This document shows, piece after piece, positions 42,060 through 47,241 of a stretch of DNA of 64,000 nt. A program made the translations under genes and the position numbers. The notes beneath the pieces are model-generated. The model made no database searches. It saw only the letters and a list, made by a program, of their open reading frames with translations, and was not told the origin of the DNA. The stretch spans positions 620,001 through 684,000 of the forward strand of contig NZ_LT607733.1 of the NCBI RefSeq assembly GCF_900091445.1. The letters are read 5' to 3'. Source of the stretch: Micromonospora echinofusca (GTDB lineage Bacteria > Actinomycetota > Actinomycetes > Mycobacteriales > Micromonosporaceae). The stretch's first letter is position 1; every line of letters starts with the position of its first letter.

Positions 42060-42107
42060 TGTCCCACCACGCCCGGATCCGCCGTAAAAGACGGGAAGGC
42101 GAGTGTC

Positions 42108-43331
42108 ATGCGTGTACTGCTGTCGACTCTCGGGTCGCGTGGCGACGTCCAACCACTGGTGGCGCTCGCGTCGCGCCTGAAGGCCCTCGGCCTTCAGGTC
42201 CGCCTCTGCGCCCCGCCGGACTTCGCCCGCTGGGTGGCCACCTTCAGGATTCCCTTCGTACCCATCGGCCCGCCCTGGCGCAGGTCGGCGGCGCCCAGGT
42301 CGCGGGCCGCCGTGCCCAAACCCTCGCCCGCACAGGTGCGCAAGCTGGCCGAGTCCTCCATCGGCATCCAGTTCGAGGTGCTGTCGGCCGCCGCCCGGGA
42401 CTGTGACGTCCTCGTCGCGTCGACCGGCCTCCAGATCGCCGCCCGTACCGTGGCGGAGAAGCGCGGCATCCCGTACGTCTTCGCGGCGCTCTGCCCGGCG
42501 GCCCTGCCCTCACCGCACCACCCTCCGCTACCGCTGCCAATGCTCGGGGAGGCGCCGGCGCCCGCGTCGGCCGACAACCGCGACCTGTGGGCCGCCAACC
42601 TGCGGCACGTCAACGACACCTTCGCCGCGCCCCTCAACGCGCTGCGGTCGGCGGTGGGGCTGGGCACCGTCGACGACGTCAGCGACCACATCCACACCGA
42701 CCAGCCGTGGCTGGCCACCGACCCGACCCTGGCACCCTGGCCGGACGCCGCCGATCCGGCCGTCTTCCAGCCGGGTGCCTGGCTCCTGCCGGACGAGCGG
42801 GCCCTGCCCGCCGAGTTGACGACCTTCCTGGACGCCGGTGGGCCGTGCGTCTACGTCGGATTCGGCAGCGTCGCCGCACCACCGGGCCTGCTGGAGACGG
42901 CCGTGCAGGCCGTGCGTGCGGTCGGCTGCCGGTTGATCGTCTCGCGGGGCTGGGCGCCGCTCTCGCTGAGCGATCGGGCACCCGACTGCCTGGTGGTCGG
43001 CGAGGTGAACCAGCAGGCGCTGTTCAGGGAGGTGGCCGTGGTGGTCCACCATGGCGGCTCGGGCACCACGACCACGGCCGCGCGGGCCGGGACGCCGCAG
43101 GTCGTCGTCCCGCAGGTGTACGACCAGCACTACTTCGCGCGCCGGGTGTCCGCGCTCGGCATCGGCACCGCACACCCCGGCTCGGTGCCGACCGTCGAGT
43201 CGCTGACCGAGGCTCTCGGCGCCGCGCTGCGGCCGGAGGTGGCCGCCCGGGCCCGCGAGTTCGCCGGCGTCGTACGCACCGACGCGGCGCAGGTCGCCGC
43301 GAAGCGGTTGACCGTCGCCCTGGGGGCCTGA
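42108..43331 (+). CDS. GT1-family (UGT/macrolide-type) glycosyltransferase
   Basis: A 407-residue GT-B enzyme. The N-terminus RVLLSTLGSRGDVQPLVALA and the C-terminal donor-binding block HHGGSGTTTTAARAGTPQVV with the Asp-Gln (YDQHYFA) are diagnostic for UDP- or TDP-sugar glycosyltransferases of natural products and sterols. It could make a glycosylated metabolite, or inactivate a macrolide as Mgt/OleD enzymes do. Its position near an erm and an ere homologue favours the second idea, but a surface-glycan role is open. The ATG at 42108 has AAGGCGAG upstream. A strong terminator follows the gene. Confidence 0.88.
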   Translation: MRVLLSTLGSRGDVQPLVALASRLKALGLQVRLCAPPDFARWVATFRIPFVPIGPPWRRSAAPRSRAAVPKPSPAQVRKLAESSIGIQFEVLSAAARDCDVLVASTGLQIAARTVAEKRGIPYVFAALCPAALPSPHHPPLPLPMLGEAPAPASADNRDLWAANLRHVNDTFAAPLNALRSAVGLGTVDDVSDHIHTDQPWLATDPTLAPWPDAADPAVFQPGAWLLPDERALPAELTTFLDAGGPCVYVGFGSVAAPPGLLETAVQAVRAVGCRLIVSRGWAPLSLSDRAPDCLVVGEVNQQALFREVAVVVHHGGSGTTTTAARAGTPQVVVPQVYDQHYFARRVSALGIGTAHPGSVPTVESLTEALGAALRPEVAARAREFAGVVRTDAAQVAAKRLTVALGA

Positions 43332-43495: not shown

Positions 43496-44401
43496 GTGGT
43501 GCGGTTCGGGTTGTTCGGCACCGGTCACTGGGCGGCCGAGACGCACGGCGCGGCGCTGGACGCGCACCCGGGGGTCACGTTCGCCGGTGTGTGGGGCCGG
43601 GACCCGGGCAAGGCCGCCGCCCTGGCCGAGCGCTACGGGGTGCCGGCGTTCGACGACGTCGACGCGCTCGTCGACGCCTGCGACGCGGTCGCCGTCGCCC
43701 TTCCGCCGGACGTCCAGACCGACATCGCGGTCCGCGCGGCCACCGCCGGCCGGCACCTGCTGCTGGACAAGCCGCTCGCGTTGAGCGTGACCGACGCCGA
43801 CCGGGTGGTGGACGCCGCGCAGGCGGCGGGCGTCGCCTCGGTGGTCTTCTTCACGGGCCGCTACCAGCCCGACGTCGCCGCCTTCCTCGCCTCGACGGCC
43901 GCCGTCGGCGGGTGGCACACCGCCAGGGGGGTCCGGTTCGGGTCCATCTTCCGGCCCGACAGCCCGTACGCTGCCTCGTCCTGGCGTCGGGAGCACGGCG
44001 CGCTGTGGGACATCGGCCCGCACGCGCTGTCGCTCATCCTGCCGGTGCTCGGGCGGGTCATCCGCGTCGCCGCGATGGACGGGCCGCGCGGGCTCGTCCA
44101 CCTGCTCCTCACCCACGACGGGGGCGCGACCAGCACGGTGTCGCTGACCCTGGACGCCCCGCAGGAGGCGGTGAGCAGGGAGTACGTCTTCTACGGCGAG
44201 AACGGCGTCGAGACCGTTCCGGCCGGCGACGGCAGTCCGGCGACCGCCCTCGGGGTGGCGATCGACCAACTGCTCGAGGAGATCGGGTCGGGCACCCGGG
44301 ACCACCGCTGCGACGTGCGCTTCGGCCGCGAGGTCGTCGCCGTGCTGGCCGCCGCCGAGACCGCCCGCGCCGAGGGCCGCACCGTCGACCTGCCGGTCTG
44401 A
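43496..44401 (+). CDS. Gfo/Idh/MocA-family oxidoreductase
   Basis: A 301-residue NAD(P)-dependent sugar-type oxidoreductase. The N-terminal Rossmann fold has RFGLFGTGHWAAETHGAAL. The cofactor-side motif EKP is present as DKPLAL with the catalytic Lys. The C-terminal domain begins near GGWHTARGVRFGS, with the His-containing WDIGPHALSL that binds substrate. Such enzymes oxidise or reduce sugars and cyclitols, or serve in deoxysugar synthesis. The start is one of two GTG codons at 43496 and 43499; GGAGG stands at the right distance from the first. It lies between the GT1 and erm genes with its own terminator before it. Confidence 0.85.
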   Translation: MVRFGLFGTGHWAAETHGAALDAHPGVTFAGVWGRDPGKAAALAERYGVPAFDDVDALVDACDAVAVALPPDVQTDIAVRAATAGRHLLLDKPLALSVTDADRVVDAAQAAGVASVVFFTGRYQPDVAAFLASTAAVGGWHTARGVRFGSIFRPDSPYAASSWRREHGALWDIGPHALSLILPVLGRVIRVAAMDGPRGLVHLLLTHDGGATSTVSLTLDAPQEAVSREYVFYGENGVETVPAGDGSPATALGVAIDQLLEEIGSGTRDHRCDVRFGREVVAVLAAAETARAEGRTVDLPV

Positions 44402-44428
44402 GCCGGAGGCGCCGGGGCCCGCCGAGGC

Positions 44429-44468
44429 GGAAAAGCGGTCGCCTCCCGCCGGCGGGCGCGGTTAGGGT
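44429..44468 (+). promoter_or_regulatory. promoter of the erm leader
   Basis: TAGGGT at 44463-44468 is a good -10 box, and its transcript would begin at the leader ATG at 44475 (6 bases on). A small A-rich patch (44431-44434) lies just upstream of where the -35 would be, followed by a weak GTCGCC. That order resembles WhiB7-type promoters. A perfect CCCGCCGGCGGG dyad (44445-44456) lies between -35 and -10. Confidence 0.45.
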
Positions 44469-44474
44469 CGCCGC

Positions 44475-44588
44475 ATGTCCGCGTACGCTCTGATCGAGGC
44501 GGTCGGTACGCCGGCCGCATTCGGGCCGCCGCCGGTGGCCCGCCCGCGAGTCCGGCGTCCGGCCCTGGCCGGCGCGACCCGCGACTGA
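44475..44588 (+). CDS. leader peptide of erm (37 residues)
   Basis: A short open frame read from a leaderless start: TAGGGT, six bases, then ATG, with no Shine-Dalgarno sequence. It encodes 37 residues. Residues 23-28 are RPRVRR, which includes Arg-x-Arg motifs like those on which macrolide-bound ribosomes stall in Erm leader peptides such as ErmDL. The stop is at 44586-44588. The reading frame of the erm gene starts 253 bases later. A small hairpin (44559-44572) in the leader coincides with codons just after the Arg motif, so a stalled ribosome would melt it. Together with the downstream hairpins it looks like a drug-sensing attenuator. Expression is inferred. Confidence 0.6.
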   Translation: MSAYALIEAVGTPAAFGPPPVARPRVRRPALAGATRD

Positions 44589-44612
44589 CCTCGCACCGCA
44601 CGCGCGGCGCCC

Positions 44613-44633
44613 CGCCCGGGTGACCCCCGGGCG
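44613..44633 (+). promoter_or_regulatory. hairpin in the erm 5' untranslated region
   Basis: CGCCCGGG and CCCGGGCG form an 8-bp stem around the loop TGACC, 24 bases after the leader stop codon. It is one of three hairpins between the leader and erm. Confidence 0.6.
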
Positions 44634-44772
44634 CGACGCCGCCCCCGCCACTCGTCCGGGTGCCGACCCGGGGCTGATGCCGCCCGGTCGTGCCCGCCGG
44701 CGTGGCGCCTGTGGTGCGCCGCCGATCCCGCGTTCCGCGTCCCGCCCAGGGCCGTCCGAGTCCCCGAATCCT

Positions 44773-44832
44773 CGGACAGGCCCGCGCTCGCGGCTGCCTG
44801 TCCGCTCCGTCGCCGCACGGCGACAGACAGGA
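44773..44832 (+). promoter_or_regulatory. alternative hairpins controlling the erm ribosome-binding site
   Basis: CGGACAGGC (44773-44781) pairs with GCCTGTCCG (44796-44804), and the stem is prolonged by CCGCG/CGCGG inside. The same strand segment CCTGTC (44797-44802) can instead pair with GACAGG at 44826-44831, which overlaps the AGGA (44829-44832) that serves as ribosome-binding site for the erm GTG at 44842. A third stem GTCGCCG/CGGCGAC (44809-44824) lies between. Two exclusive pairings that free or hide the Shine-Dalgarno sequence are the mark of translational attenuation. Confidence 0.5.
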
Positions 44833-44841
44833 CGACGACCC

Positions 44842-45639
44842 GTGGCGCCCCGCCGTACCCGAGCAACCGAACGCGACCGGTCCCGTCGCGTACTGTCCCA
44901 GAACTTCCTCGCCGACCCGGCCGCGATCGCCCGCGTGGTGCACGCCGCCCGGCCCGGACCCGACCGGCTCCTACTGGAGGTGGGTGCCGGCCGGGGCCAG
45001 CTCACCCGGCCGCTCGCCGCCCGCTGCCGGCACCTGACGGCGTACGAAGTGGACCCGGCCGCCGGCGCCGAGCTGGCCCGGCTCTGCGCCGCCCTGCCGA
45101 ACGTGACGCACCGGCAGGCCGACTTCCTCACCGCAGCGCCGCCGCCGGAGGAGTTCGACGTGGTCGGCAACATCCCCTGGTCGCTGACCTCGGCCGTGGT
45201 GCGCTGGTGCCTGGCCGCGCCCGGCCTGCGCGCGGCCACCCTGCTCACCCAGTTGGAGTACGCCCGGCGACGCGGCGGCGACTACGGCCGGTGGACCAGG
45301 CTGACCGTGCTGACCTGGCCGGAGTTCGGCTGGCGGCTGGTCGGGCGGGTGCCCCGCACCGCGTTCCGGCCGGTGCCGAGGGTCGACGCCGGCATCCTGC
45401 GGATCGAGCGGCGCCCGGAGCCGCTGCTGGCCGCGTCGGCGCTGCCCGCGTACCGCCGGATGGTAGAGATCGGCTTCGACGGGGTCGGCGGCTCGCTCGC
45501 GGCCTCGCTCGCCCGGCATTACCCGCGGGCGCGGCTGGCGGCGGCGCTGCGGGCGACCCGGCTCGACCCGGCCACCCCGGTCGGGCACGTCTGGCCCGAG
45601 CAGTGGCTGGTGCTGTTCCGGCTGCTGCACGCCCGCTGA
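44842..45639 (+). CDS. erm: 23S rRNA (adenine-N6) methyltransferase, Erm family
   Basis: A 265-residue Erm methyltransferase. It has the N-terminal LSQNFLADPAAI, the SAM-binding EVGAGRGQLT (residues 46-55), the acidic AYEVD (Glu69), the ADF (Asp94) and the catalytic NIPW (110-113), plus FRPVPRVDAGIL near the C-terminus. These enzymes methylate A2058 of 23S rRNA and give macrolide-lincosamide-streptogramin B resistance. The GTG at 44842 fits the usual basic N-terminus (RRTRATERDRSRR). A longer ORF from 44620 would add residues with no family similarity. The 5' region carries a leader peptide and alternative hairpins, suggesting drug-induced translation. An ere homologue lies 350 bases further on. 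Confidence 0.92.
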   Translation: MAPRRTRATERDRSRRVLSQNFLADPAAIARVVHAARPGPDRLLLEVGAGRGQLTRPLAARCRHLTAYEVDPAAGAELARLCAALPNVTHRQADFLTAAPPPEEFDVVGNIPWSLTSAVVRWCLAAPGLRAATLLTQLEYARRRGGDYGRWTRLTVLTWPEFGWRLVGRVPRTAFRPVPRVDAGILRIERRPEPLLAASALPAYRRMVEIGFDGVGGSLAASLARHYPRARLAAALRATRLDPATPVGHVWPEQWLVLFRLLHAR

Positions 45640-45643
45640 GGGA

Positions 45644-45835
45644 TCAGGCCAGGGTGTTCAGGGCCTCGCTCAGCTCGGCGGGGGAGCCGAACTCCTCCGC
45701 CGGCAGGGCCCGCAGCGTCTGGAGCATCTCCGTGCTGGCCCCGTTCTCCTGGCCCCAGCGGACCAGGTCCTCGCGGGAGACCGGGTAGTCGAGCCCGGCC
45801 AGGTACTCCTGCAACTGCACGCCGGTGACGGTCAT
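45644..45835 (-). CDS. DUF2795 protein
   Basis: A 63-residue protein of the DUF2795 family, with VQLQEYLAGLDYPVSREDLVRWG at the front and a short helical end. The family is small, widespread in actinobacteria and uncharacterised, and some members are longer and act with stress genes. The ATG at 45835 has no Shine-Dalgarno sequence and sits exactly at the foot of a 12-bp hairpin. That hairpin and the first codons are duplicated just upstream (copy 2 has its own ATG and a stop codon after 16 codons). It converges with the erm gene 4 bases apart. Confidence 0.85.
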   Translation of the reverse strand: MTVTGVQLQEYLAGLDYPVSREDLVRWGQENGASTEMLQTLRALPAEEFGSPAELSEALNTLA

Positions 45836-45932
45836 GCCGGCGGGCTACCCGTTGAGCCCGCCGGCACACGCCTGCGGCACGCCGGTGACGGTCATGCCGG
45901 CGGGCTACCCGTTGAGCCCGCCGGCACACGCC
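45818..45932 (-). repeat. 60-bp tandem duplication of a start-codon hairpin
   Basis: A 55-base segment at 45818-45872 is repeated exactly at 45878-45932, period 60. Each copy contains the start ATG of the DUF2795 frame with the codons for Met-Thr-Val-Thr-Gly-Val, and a perfect 12-bp hairpin (45835-45846 with 45855-45866, and 45895-45906 with 45915-45926) with an 8-base loop. The upstream ATG at 45895 opens a 16-codon frame ended by TAG, in phase with the real gene. Confidence 0.95.
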
Positions 45933-45952
45933 CGCCGATCGACGATCGGCGG
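45932..45952. promoter_or_regulatory. 21-bp perfect palindrome between divergent genes
   Basis: CCGCCGATCG-A-CGATCGGCGG lies between the DUF2795 gene and the ere homologue on opposite strands, right after the duplicated segment and 33 bases before the ere start. It is followed by TTT. It could be an operator, for example of a TetR- or MarR-type repressor, or a hairpin. Confidence 0.5.
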
Positions 45953-45984: not shown

Positions 45985-47241
45985 ATGCTGGTTCAGCGGC
46001 TCGGCGCGCCGAGCGACTTCGACCCGTTGCTGGAGCGCGTCCGGGACGCCCGGATCGTGATGATCGGCGAGGCGACGCACGGCAACTACGACTACTACCG
46101 GCTGCGCGAACAGCTCACCCGCCGGCTGATCGCCGAGTGCGGGTTCTCCTTCGTGGCGGTGGAGGGGGACTGGCCCGACTGCGACCGGGTGCACCGCTCG
46201 GTGACCGCCGCCCCGGGCGGGGCAGCCGACCCGCGTGTCGCGCTGGAGCGCTTCGAGCGCTGGCCGACGTGGATGTGGGCGAACGCCGAGGTGGCCCGCT
46301 TCTGCTCCTGGCTGCGGGCGTGGAACGTGGAGCGGCCCGAGGGCGCCCGGGCCGGCTTCCACGGGCTGGACGTCTACAGCCTCTGGGAGTCCATGCAGGC
46401 GATCTTCGACTACCTCGGCGAGGAGGACCCGGGCTCGCTGGAGGCGGCCCAGGACGCCTACCGCTGCTTCGAGCCGTACGGCAAGCGGGTCGAGGAGTAC
46501 GGCATGGCGAGCCGGTTCGTCTCGGCCCGCTGCGAGGAGGAGGTCGTACGGCTGCTGGCGCGTACCCGCGAACAGGCCGCCGCGGACGGCCCGGACAGCT
46601 TCTCGGCCTGGCAGAACGCGGAGGTGGTGGCCGGGGCGGAGCGCTACTACCGGGCGATGGTGCGCGGCGGGCCGGAGTCGTGGAACATCCGGGACACGCA
46701 CATGGCGGACACCCTGGACCGGCTGCTGGAGCGCTACGGACCGGGCGGGCGGGGCGTCGTCTGGGCGCACAACACGCACGTGGGCGACGCCCGGGCCACC
46801 GACATGGCCGCCGACGGGATGGTCAACGTCGGCCAGTTGGCCCGCGAGCGGCACGGCGCGGACGAGGTGGTCCTGGTCGGCTTCGGCGGCTACCGGGGCA
46901 CGGTGCTCGCCGCGCCCCGCTGGGGCTCGCCGGCTGAGGCGATGGTGGTGCCGCCGGCCCGCCCCGGTTCGGTCGAGCACCGGTTGCACGAGCTGATGCC
47001 CGAGCGGGCCGTGCTGGTCTTCGGCGGCGACGACCAGCCCGGCTGGGTCACCGGGACCGCCGACCACCGGGCGATCGGGGTGGTCTACGACCCGTCCTTC
47101 GAGTCGTGGGGCAACTACGTGCCGACCCGCCTGGGGGAGCGCTACGACGCCTTCGTCTGGTGCGACGAGACGACCACCCTGCACCCCCTCCCGGCCCTGA
47201 CGACCCCGGGCGAGATGGAGACCTACCCGGCGGGCGTCTGA
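45985..47241 (+). CDS. erythromycin esterase (Ere) homologue
   Basis: A 418-residue protein of the erythromycin-esterase family (PF05139). The metal/nucleophile-activating set is IGEATHGNYD with Glu29 and His32, VEGDWPD with Glu60, and WAHNTHVGD with His262. The Glu-x2-His pair and the 31-residue distance to the second Glu equal those in EreC (Glu43, His46, Glu74). Ere enzymes open the macrolactone ring by hydrolysis. Many family members outside plasmids have no known drug substrate, so the activity here is inferred, but an erm gene stands next door. The ATG at 45985 has no strong Shine-Dalgarno sequence. It is transcribed away from the DUF2795 gene. Confidence 0.85.
   Translation: MLVQRLGAPSDFDPLLERVRDARIVMIGEATHGNYDYYRLREQLTRRLIAECGFSFVAVEGDWPDCDRVHRSVTAAPGGAADPRVALERFERWPTWMWANAEVARFCSWLRAWNVERPEGARAGFHGLDVYSLWESMQAIFDYLGEEDPGSLEAAQDAYRCFEPYGKRVEEYGMASRFVSARCEEEVVRLLARTREQAAADGPDSFSAWQNAEVVAGAERYYRAMVRGGPESWNIRDTHMADTLDRLLERYGPGGRGVVWAHNTHVGDARATDMAADGMVNVGQLARERHGADEVVLVGFGGYRGTVLAAPRWGSPAEAMVVPPARPGSVEHRLHELMPERAVLVFGGDDQPGWVTGTADHRAIGVVYDPSFESWGNYVPTRLGERYDAFVWCDETTTLHPLPALTTPGEMETYPAGV

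Follow-up and report, generated by a model that had tools for sequence, protein, structure and literature searches.

In Micromonospora echinofusca, an erm gene lies within the stretch of DNA analysed here (the window, 64,000 nucleotides of contig NZ_LT607733.1). Its product scores 348.1 bits against the NCBIfam model NF000337 (cut-off 320), and its closest named relatives are from Micromonospora. In the 7.0-Mb genome, no second Erm-like gene was found except for one weak match (36% identity, E 1.1e-17), which probably represents the 16S dimethylase RsmA. A glycosyltransferase gene on the upstream side of erm (42105-43331) has a product similar to Rgt, which inactivates rifamycin (392 bits, under the cut-off of 800); it is flanked by genes for a family-2 glycosyltransferase and a GFO/IDH/MocA oxidoreductase. 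Downstream, a DUF2795 gene is encoded on the minus strand (45644-45835); a 60-nt tandem duplication (45817-45936, 97% identical) covers its start, so that a second copy of the start region stands just upstream of it. Beyond this gene, an erythromycin-esterase family protein is encoded at 45985-47241 (411 bits against PF05139, 26 of 750 bits against the EreB model). The features of the erm region are the following:

44430 to 44444, plus strand: WblC/WhiB7-type box, GAAAAG (44430-44435) and the -35-like TCGCCT (44439-44444), with 2 mismatches to the consensus
44463 to 44468, plus strand: -10 element TAGGGT, assigned by sequence and spacing, with the transcription start expected at or next to the ATG
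44475 to 44588, plus strand: leaderless leader ORF of 37 codons, MSAYALIEAVGTPAAFGPPPVARPRVRRPALAGATRD, assigned by sequence and conservation
44541 to 44555, plus strand: predicted stall site, the overlapping +X+ motifs R23-P24-R25 and R25-V26-R27, from leader conservation
44560 to 44568, plus strand: segment A, CGGCCCTGG, codons P29-A32, pairing with segment B
44589 to 44745, plus strand: spacer portion that varies among relatives and has additional hairpins; the relatives with the shortest spacers (112-122 nt) lack it
44746 to 44754, plus strand: segment B, CCAGGGCCG, complementary to A, with 95.8% of cells paired over 79 rows
44754 to 44777, plus strand: hairpin 1:2, GTCCGAG (44754-44760) with CTCGGAC (44771-44777), extended by GGGCC/GGCCC, no covariation
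44773 to 44804, plus strand: helix 2:3, 44773-44780 with 44797-44804, compensatory changes at two pairs (13 cells)
44809 to 44824, plus strand: local hairpin GTCGCC/GGCGAC (44809-44814 with 44819-44824) beside the Shine-Dalgarno (SD) sequence, compensatory U-A to C-G change in 4 rows
44826 to 44834, plus strand: segment 4 with the SD sequence AGGA (44829-44832), its GGACG pairing with 44799-44803 in the naked fold
44842 to 45639, plus strand: erm, 23S rRNA A2058 methyltransferase of the ErmE/ErmH/ErmO/ErmR family (NF000337), GTG start

The original prediction for this DNA had described a TAGGGT followed, after 6 bases, by the ATG of a 37-codon frame carrying RPRVRR, with a gap of 253 nt before erm. 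Re-reading of the bases confirms every one of these elements: TAGGGT occupies 44463-44468, the ATG stands at 44475, the stop codon ends at 44588, and the gap runs to the GTG at 44842, the leader start being 367 nt upstream of erm. Comparison with related genomes, proposed at that time as a check, has shown that relatives keep the leader together with its leaderless spacing, as well as the Arg-X-Arg motif and the alternative pairing 2:3. In the same genus, an erm match at E <= 1e-30 has been found in 99 of 160 genomes; since the other 61 have no such match and three genomes (G147, G123, and G021) carry partial or broken-up matches alone, erm appears to have been both gained and lost among members of the genus. 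The upstream regions compared number 153, from 92 of the 99 genomes (three fragmentary and four at 38-40% identity left out) and from 61 of 72 relative loci (11 distant or fragment matches, L092-L096 and L098-L103, left out), two sets that overlap. The Arg motif, searched in any frame and with no promoter required, occurs in 123 of the 153, and in 122 of these 123 an in-frame ATG follows TANNNT at 5-8 nt; in the remaining one, L121, the sequence breaks off 7 nt upstream of the ATG. These 122 leaders correspond to 88 that are distinct over the first 200 nt, with 6 nt (21 leaders) or 7 nt (67 leaders) between the -10 element and the ATG. Among the 31 regions lacking this leader type, 24 contain another leaderless frame beginning with ATG (with Arg-X-Arg in 23) and seven have none. 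For three of the seven, the reason is a contig end less than 350 nt away, and L057 and L160, two of the three, are probably one place. The Streptomyces locus L075 has a leaderless GTG frame with RPR, and no leaderless leader frame was found upstream of erm in L082, L164, and L165; in L082, a Micromonospora erm, there is no such leader anywhere in the 6.7 kb examined. A GTG-started leader of the type GLGRG...RMRRGPGALTGPG has been observed in L187, L189, and L191-L194, all from one other genus, and in the Streptomyces contig L075, and constitutes a second conserved leader family.

The leader is a short ORF with Arg/Lys-X-Arg/Lys upstream of erm, as in ErmDL-type leaders, with Trp at position 25 as the exception in 3 of the 88 genus-type leaders. 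R23 and R28 are invariant in all 88, residue 25 is Arg in the other 85, R27 is Arg in 87 and Gln in one, and position 26 is free, with nine residues. Codons 23 and 25 each use four synonymous Arg codons among 85 leaders, which had been selected for Arg-X-Arg; this variation, together with the free position 26, is the pattern that would be expected of a +X+ motif. Over 81 leaders, pN/pS amounts to 0.95 for the whole frame and 0.87 for codons 2-22 but drops to 0.146 in codons 23-29, and constraint at the peptide level is therefore clear only at the Arg motif, being weak elsewhere; for codons 28-32, part of the constraint may act on the RNA. Trp replaces Arg25 (RPW) in L045, L059, L152, and L068, the last from Phytohabitans flavus, and these leaders possibly have an altered inducer range or have lost sensing. 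For ErmDL, stalling at Arg6-Leu7-Arg8 has been reported with telithromycin, for which the motif is essential, and with erythromycin, for which it is largely dispensable (PMC8298421). The latter weakens RxR as the sole determinant of the inducer and may explain the leaders with Trp at position 25.

A chance origin of the leader has been rejected, given its conservation, the promoter boxes, and a background nearly empty of such ORFs. In 463,740 nt (both strands of the window, its flanks, and the reverse strands of 34 Micromonospora-type loci), TANNNT is followed by an ATG at 5-8 nt in 7 places, and in one of these the ATG opens an ORF of 10-45 codons, the leader of the window itself. In the erm upstream regions of the 34 loci (30,600 nt), there are 29 ATGs so placed and equally many such ORFs, of which 27 carry +X+.

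The WblC/WhiB7 box upstream of the leader had been missed in the earlier analysis. In Streptomyces coelicolor, the WblC promoter consensus is GAAAWY, TKGM, 16-19 nt, and TANNNT (PMC7157823). The promoter elements of the window are of this type, with 18 nt between TCGCCT and the -10 element. At most 2 mismatches to the consensus are found in 93 of 105 loci versus 1.6% of composition-shuffled sequences (105 of 108 loci were scanned, three having too little upstream sequence), and an A/T triplet begins at -38 to -27 of the -10 element in 102 of the 105. A sigma-70 promoter was also sought by consensus scan, and none was found. As most start sites reported in the same source are 7-8 bp below the -10 element (PMC7157823), the start is expected at the A of the ATG or the next base; the erm mRNA would then start at the leader ATG, as judged from the -10 spacing. 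Six WhiB-family matches are present in the genome, and one of them carries GVWGG together with an RGRPR AT-hook. This combination is the mark of WhiB7, and activation of the erm promoter by WblC/WhiB7 is predicted.

Similar leaders are found across the class. In a sample of 394 genomes, 70 have an Erm above the family cut-off, and 67 upstream regions remain once three that belong to the genus set are removed. In 58 of the 67, erm is preceded by a leaderless frame that starts with ATG or GTG and contains Arg/Lys-X-Arg/Lys, and 48 of the 58 have the WblC box within 2 mismatches; the other 9 regions lack such a frame. The 67 reverse strands give one frame and none with the box, and 20 dinucleotide shuffles average 2.05 and 0.05. 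The 58 leaders come from eight families and 26 genera. At least two of the 67 regions, L208 and L214, repeat the contigs of L081 and L076 in the genus-relative set, and the leader of L236, with 51 codons and 5 mismatches in its promoter box, appears to be a chance hit. Many of them end in IRIRRS, IRPRRA or alike. The leader of L173, MTASMRLRTA, has Arg6-Leu7-Arg8 as in ErmDL, and that of L238, from another family, has RPRVRRPAL as in Micromonospora. It is very improbable that WblC/WhiB7 alone controls erm, the leader simply resulting from the leaderless start or encoding a small protein that serves a different purpose. This would agree with the WblC box at most loci and with the increase of an erm(O)-type mRNA by WblC in S. 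coelicolor (PMC7157823), but it leaves without reason the Arg motif, its codon pattern, the repeated occurrence of +X+, and the conservation of A:B and 2:3.

The helices have been compared in an alignment (A1) of 79 of the 85 genus leaders (L163, L010, L122, and three with spacers over 330 nt being out). The pairing of the leader codons with the attenuator (A:B) had escaped the original prediction. A:B, 2:3 and the local hairpin can all form at the same time, and 97.0% of their cells are paired over the 79 rows, versus 28.9-43.5% in slid registers. Changes on both sides of a pair occur in 17 cells of these three helices versus 1.7 in shuffled alignments, and the pairs with two-sided change are 3, a number reached by 46 of 500 shuffles, so that the covariation rests on few pairs. 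A:B in this register has no two-sided change among the 79 rows. In ten leaders with CCCCGG for CCCTGG, B reads GCCGAGGGCC or GCCGTGGGCC and pairs in a shifted register, and L104 is a mixed case, with the new B and the old leader.

The segments between which the original prediction had proposed a choice of partners have been confirmed, namely CCTGTC (44797-44802), GGACAGG (44774-44780), and GACAGG (44826-44831), which covers the AGGA at 44829-44832. Of the two pairings of CCTGTC, the one within helix 2:3 covaries, and this helix is an alternative to both 1:2 and sequestration of the SD; the other, CCTGTC:GACAGG, has 97% of its cells paired, as has 1:2, with no covariation in either, and it loses a pair in 8 of the 79 rows. 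For this reason CCTGTC:GACAGG has been set aside as the sole helix hiding the SD. The shorter, overlapping register GTCC:GGAC, by which the naked fold hides the SD, is invariant in the alignment, and segment 4, CAGACAGGACGA, is invariant save for an additional A that some rows carry. Compensatory changes in 2:3 go along with a weaker 3:4. In L047, L055, L136, L147, L153, L154, L155, and L157, segments 2 and 3 have jointly become GGACCGC/GCGGTCC, with the SD segment unchanged. The hairpins that had been described after the leader are predicted by folding, but those in 44589-44745 are variable, and as they are missing from the relatives with short spacers, the first hairpins of the spacer have been set aside as the switch.

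In the predicted fold, the spacer consists of a large branched domain, a small hairpin, a hairpin at 44749-44783, and a further one in which the GTG and part of the SD are sequestered. The z-score is -3.1 for 44589-44850; for 44745-44850, where the GTG lies buried together with the GGA of the SD, the fold has -58.2 kcal/mol and a z-score of -4.2. The SD is held there in the register UGUCC (44799-44803) with GGACG (44830-44834), which overlaps with, and is not identical to, CCTGTC:GACAGG. Thus, mutually exclusive helices, one of which hides the SD, are present by sequence and prediction, with covariation for 2:3 and the local hairpin only. At the gathering threshold of Rfam, no known RNA is matched here, the sole match being a tRNA elsewhere.

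The reading that we prefer, with a probability of about 60%, is that a leaderless +X+ leader under a WblC/WhiB7-type promoter frees the erm SD by drug-dependent stalling. The promoter would produce an mRNA beginning at the leader ATG, on which ribosomes would accordingly load without a Shine-Dalgarno sequence. In the absence of drug, the leader would be completed, and 1:2 and the hairpin hiding the SD and the GTG would fold (OFF). A macrolide-bound ribosome would instead stall at R23-P24-R25, with its front edge just short of A; A would pair with B, 1:2 would be weakened, 2 would pair with 3, and the erm SD would be freed (ON). A ribosome protects about 15 nt beyond the first base of the P-site codon. 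With P24 in the P site, protection is predicted to extend to 44559, and A, which starts one base on at 44560, would be left free to pair with B. In this model, the position of the mRNA start, the reading of the leader by ribosomes, their stalling in response to the drug, the sequence of the steps, and the induction of erm are inferred.

A ribosome stalled two codons later, at R25-V26-R27, would cover A and push the switch the opposite way, and equilibrium folding of 79 of the 85 genus leaders (L009, L056, L163, and three with spacers of at least 330 nt being out) illustrates this dependence. When leader nt 1-85 are blocked, A:B pairs rise from 3.5 to 5.2 on average over the 79 loci, and from 2.2 to 7.9 in the window, while 1:2 pairing falls from 4.15 to 3.67; when nt 1-91 are blocked, A:B is lost (0.33) and 1:2 goes up to 4.68. 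The wiring therefore depends on which of the overlapping motifs stalls the ribosome. An opposite wiring, with the stall at R25-V26-R27, 1:2 formed, and 2:3 inhibitory, is unlikely, even though it agrees with the effect of blocking nt 1-91, the free residue is position 26, the typical X of +X+, and compensation keeps 2:3 even where CCTGTC:GACAGG is broken. With 1:2 formed, however, segment 3 is left free for the SD, and GTCC/GGAC is invariant; moreover, Phytohabitans maris (L066) and Paractinoplanes rishiriensis (L071) keep the first +X+ alone. As a test of the switch itself, equilibrium folding gave no clear result, since the accessibility of the SD barely moves: its mean unpaired fraction is 0.25 in the naked RNA, 0.28 with a stalled ribosome, and 0.25 with a polysome. 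Between the stalled and polysome states, accessibility goes up by more than 0.1 in 13 of the 79 loci and down in 2, and in the window itself these calculations leave it unchanged on stalling.

Beyond the genus pattern, the segment past the first +X+ has been compared with the spacer in 75 other leaders, including that of L163, a genome of the genus whose erm is only distantly related. In a comparison designed after the genus pattern had been seen, and with loci that are related, the complementarity has a mean z of -1.03, with p <= 0.05 in 20 leaders, and an upstream control segment has a mean z of -0.03, with p <= 0.05 in 2 of 72. Several short leaders of the RIRRS type show no excess complementarity past +X+, and the window's own segment A reaches z -0.38 (p 0.31 versus shuffles).

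It is also conceivable, though improbable, that the switch acts on transcription, through ribosome-controlled termination or Rho, or on mRNA stability, and not on SD access. Attenuators lacking a U-tract have been reported in actinomycetes (PMC8079986) and a transcriptional attenuator on whiB7 itself (PMC10727445). On the other hand, no intrinsic terminator was found in 44300-45000 by a consensus scan, which misses terminators without T-runs, and the conserved element ends on the SD, with the SD and the GTG hidden in the naked fold. Control of SD access by the stalled leader is the preferred reading, a mechanism that is well motivated and predicted, for a leader that is real, conserved, and more general than was known when it was first noticed.

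Several known systems share parts of this arrangement. The ErmDL/ermD system of Bacillus has the Arg-X-Arg stall motif and a long intergenic region of 276 nt (PMC8298421), and by analogy a macrolide-bound ribosome is predicted to stall on the Micromonospora leader with X in the P site. Unlike in ErmDL, the motif lies at codons 23-27, the ORF is leaderless, the promoter is of the WblC/WhiB7 type, and part of the leader's own coding sequence pairs with the attenuator. In staphylococcal ermC, alternative helices reportedly decide the access to the erm SD as well (PMC10219788), whereas the Micromonospora system differs in its leaderless leader, another stall motif, a fifth segment (A), a high-GC RNA, and a 253-nt spacer. 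WhiB7 controls erm41 of Mycobacterium abscessus and erm(38) (PMC10727445, PMC13393426). Both SCO6089 of S. coelicolor (PMC7157823), with which the promoter elements are shared, and erm41 (PMC10727445) are likewise erm genes targeted by WblC/WhiB7, but for neither is a leader peptide between the promoter and the erm gene mentioned in the excerpts of these papers. Leaderless leader peptides are known from the amino-acid operons of S. lividans (leuL, trpL, and ilvL), several without a classical terminator (PMC8079986), and candidates exist in mycobacteria (PMC4633059); leuL, trpL, and ilvL sense the supply of amino acids, whereas the Micromonospora leader is predicted to sense a drug. Stalling by antibiotics on a uORF in an actinomycete resistance circuit has been described for whiB7/wblC (PMC4128351, PMC10727445), although that uORF is SD-led, is followed by a rho-independent terminator, and acts on the regulator, one step above erm. 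A survey of about 250 bp upstream of erm genes with ORFfinder has detected uORFs in part of the family and no universal pattern (PMC11264731); the Micromonospora leader would be missed by it because of its start 367 nt upstream. Among the literature matches listed, with subscription papers outside their scope, none describes a leaderless erm leader or a Micromonospora erm leader. Older work is said to treat the tlrA/ermSF and ermSV leaders of Streptomyces, a later functional paper reportedly deals with the mycobacterial polycysteine ORFs, and work by Lee from 2022 reportedly concerns the whiB7/wblC uORF. The ingredients are known separately, and their combination and spread appear to be new.

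There is slightly better than an even chance that a leaderless Arg-X-Arg leader driven by WblC/WhiB7 is the standard, and probably ancient, control of erm in actinomycetes, with two sensors in series and with codons of the arrest peptide doubling as a strand of the RNA switch. If so, WblC/WhiB7 would sense stress for transcription and a drug-specific stall on the first codons would act on translation, the switch strand sitting at the front edge of the stalled ribosome. This would be of biological significance because actinomycetes are the likely source of many erm genes, and their control would proceed by an arrangement undescribed in the literature searched. The leaderless leader would place the sensor at the very first codons of the message, and from the +X+ motif one could predict, in a form open to testing, which macrolides and ketolides act as inducers. 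Together, the 88 leaders of the genus and the 58 of the class would form a natural series for the evolution of arrest peptides, including the Trp-25 variants, which may behave differently. Finally, the arrangement would explain how erm can be drug-specific in species where it is controlled by WhiB7, despite the response of WhiB7 to many stresses.
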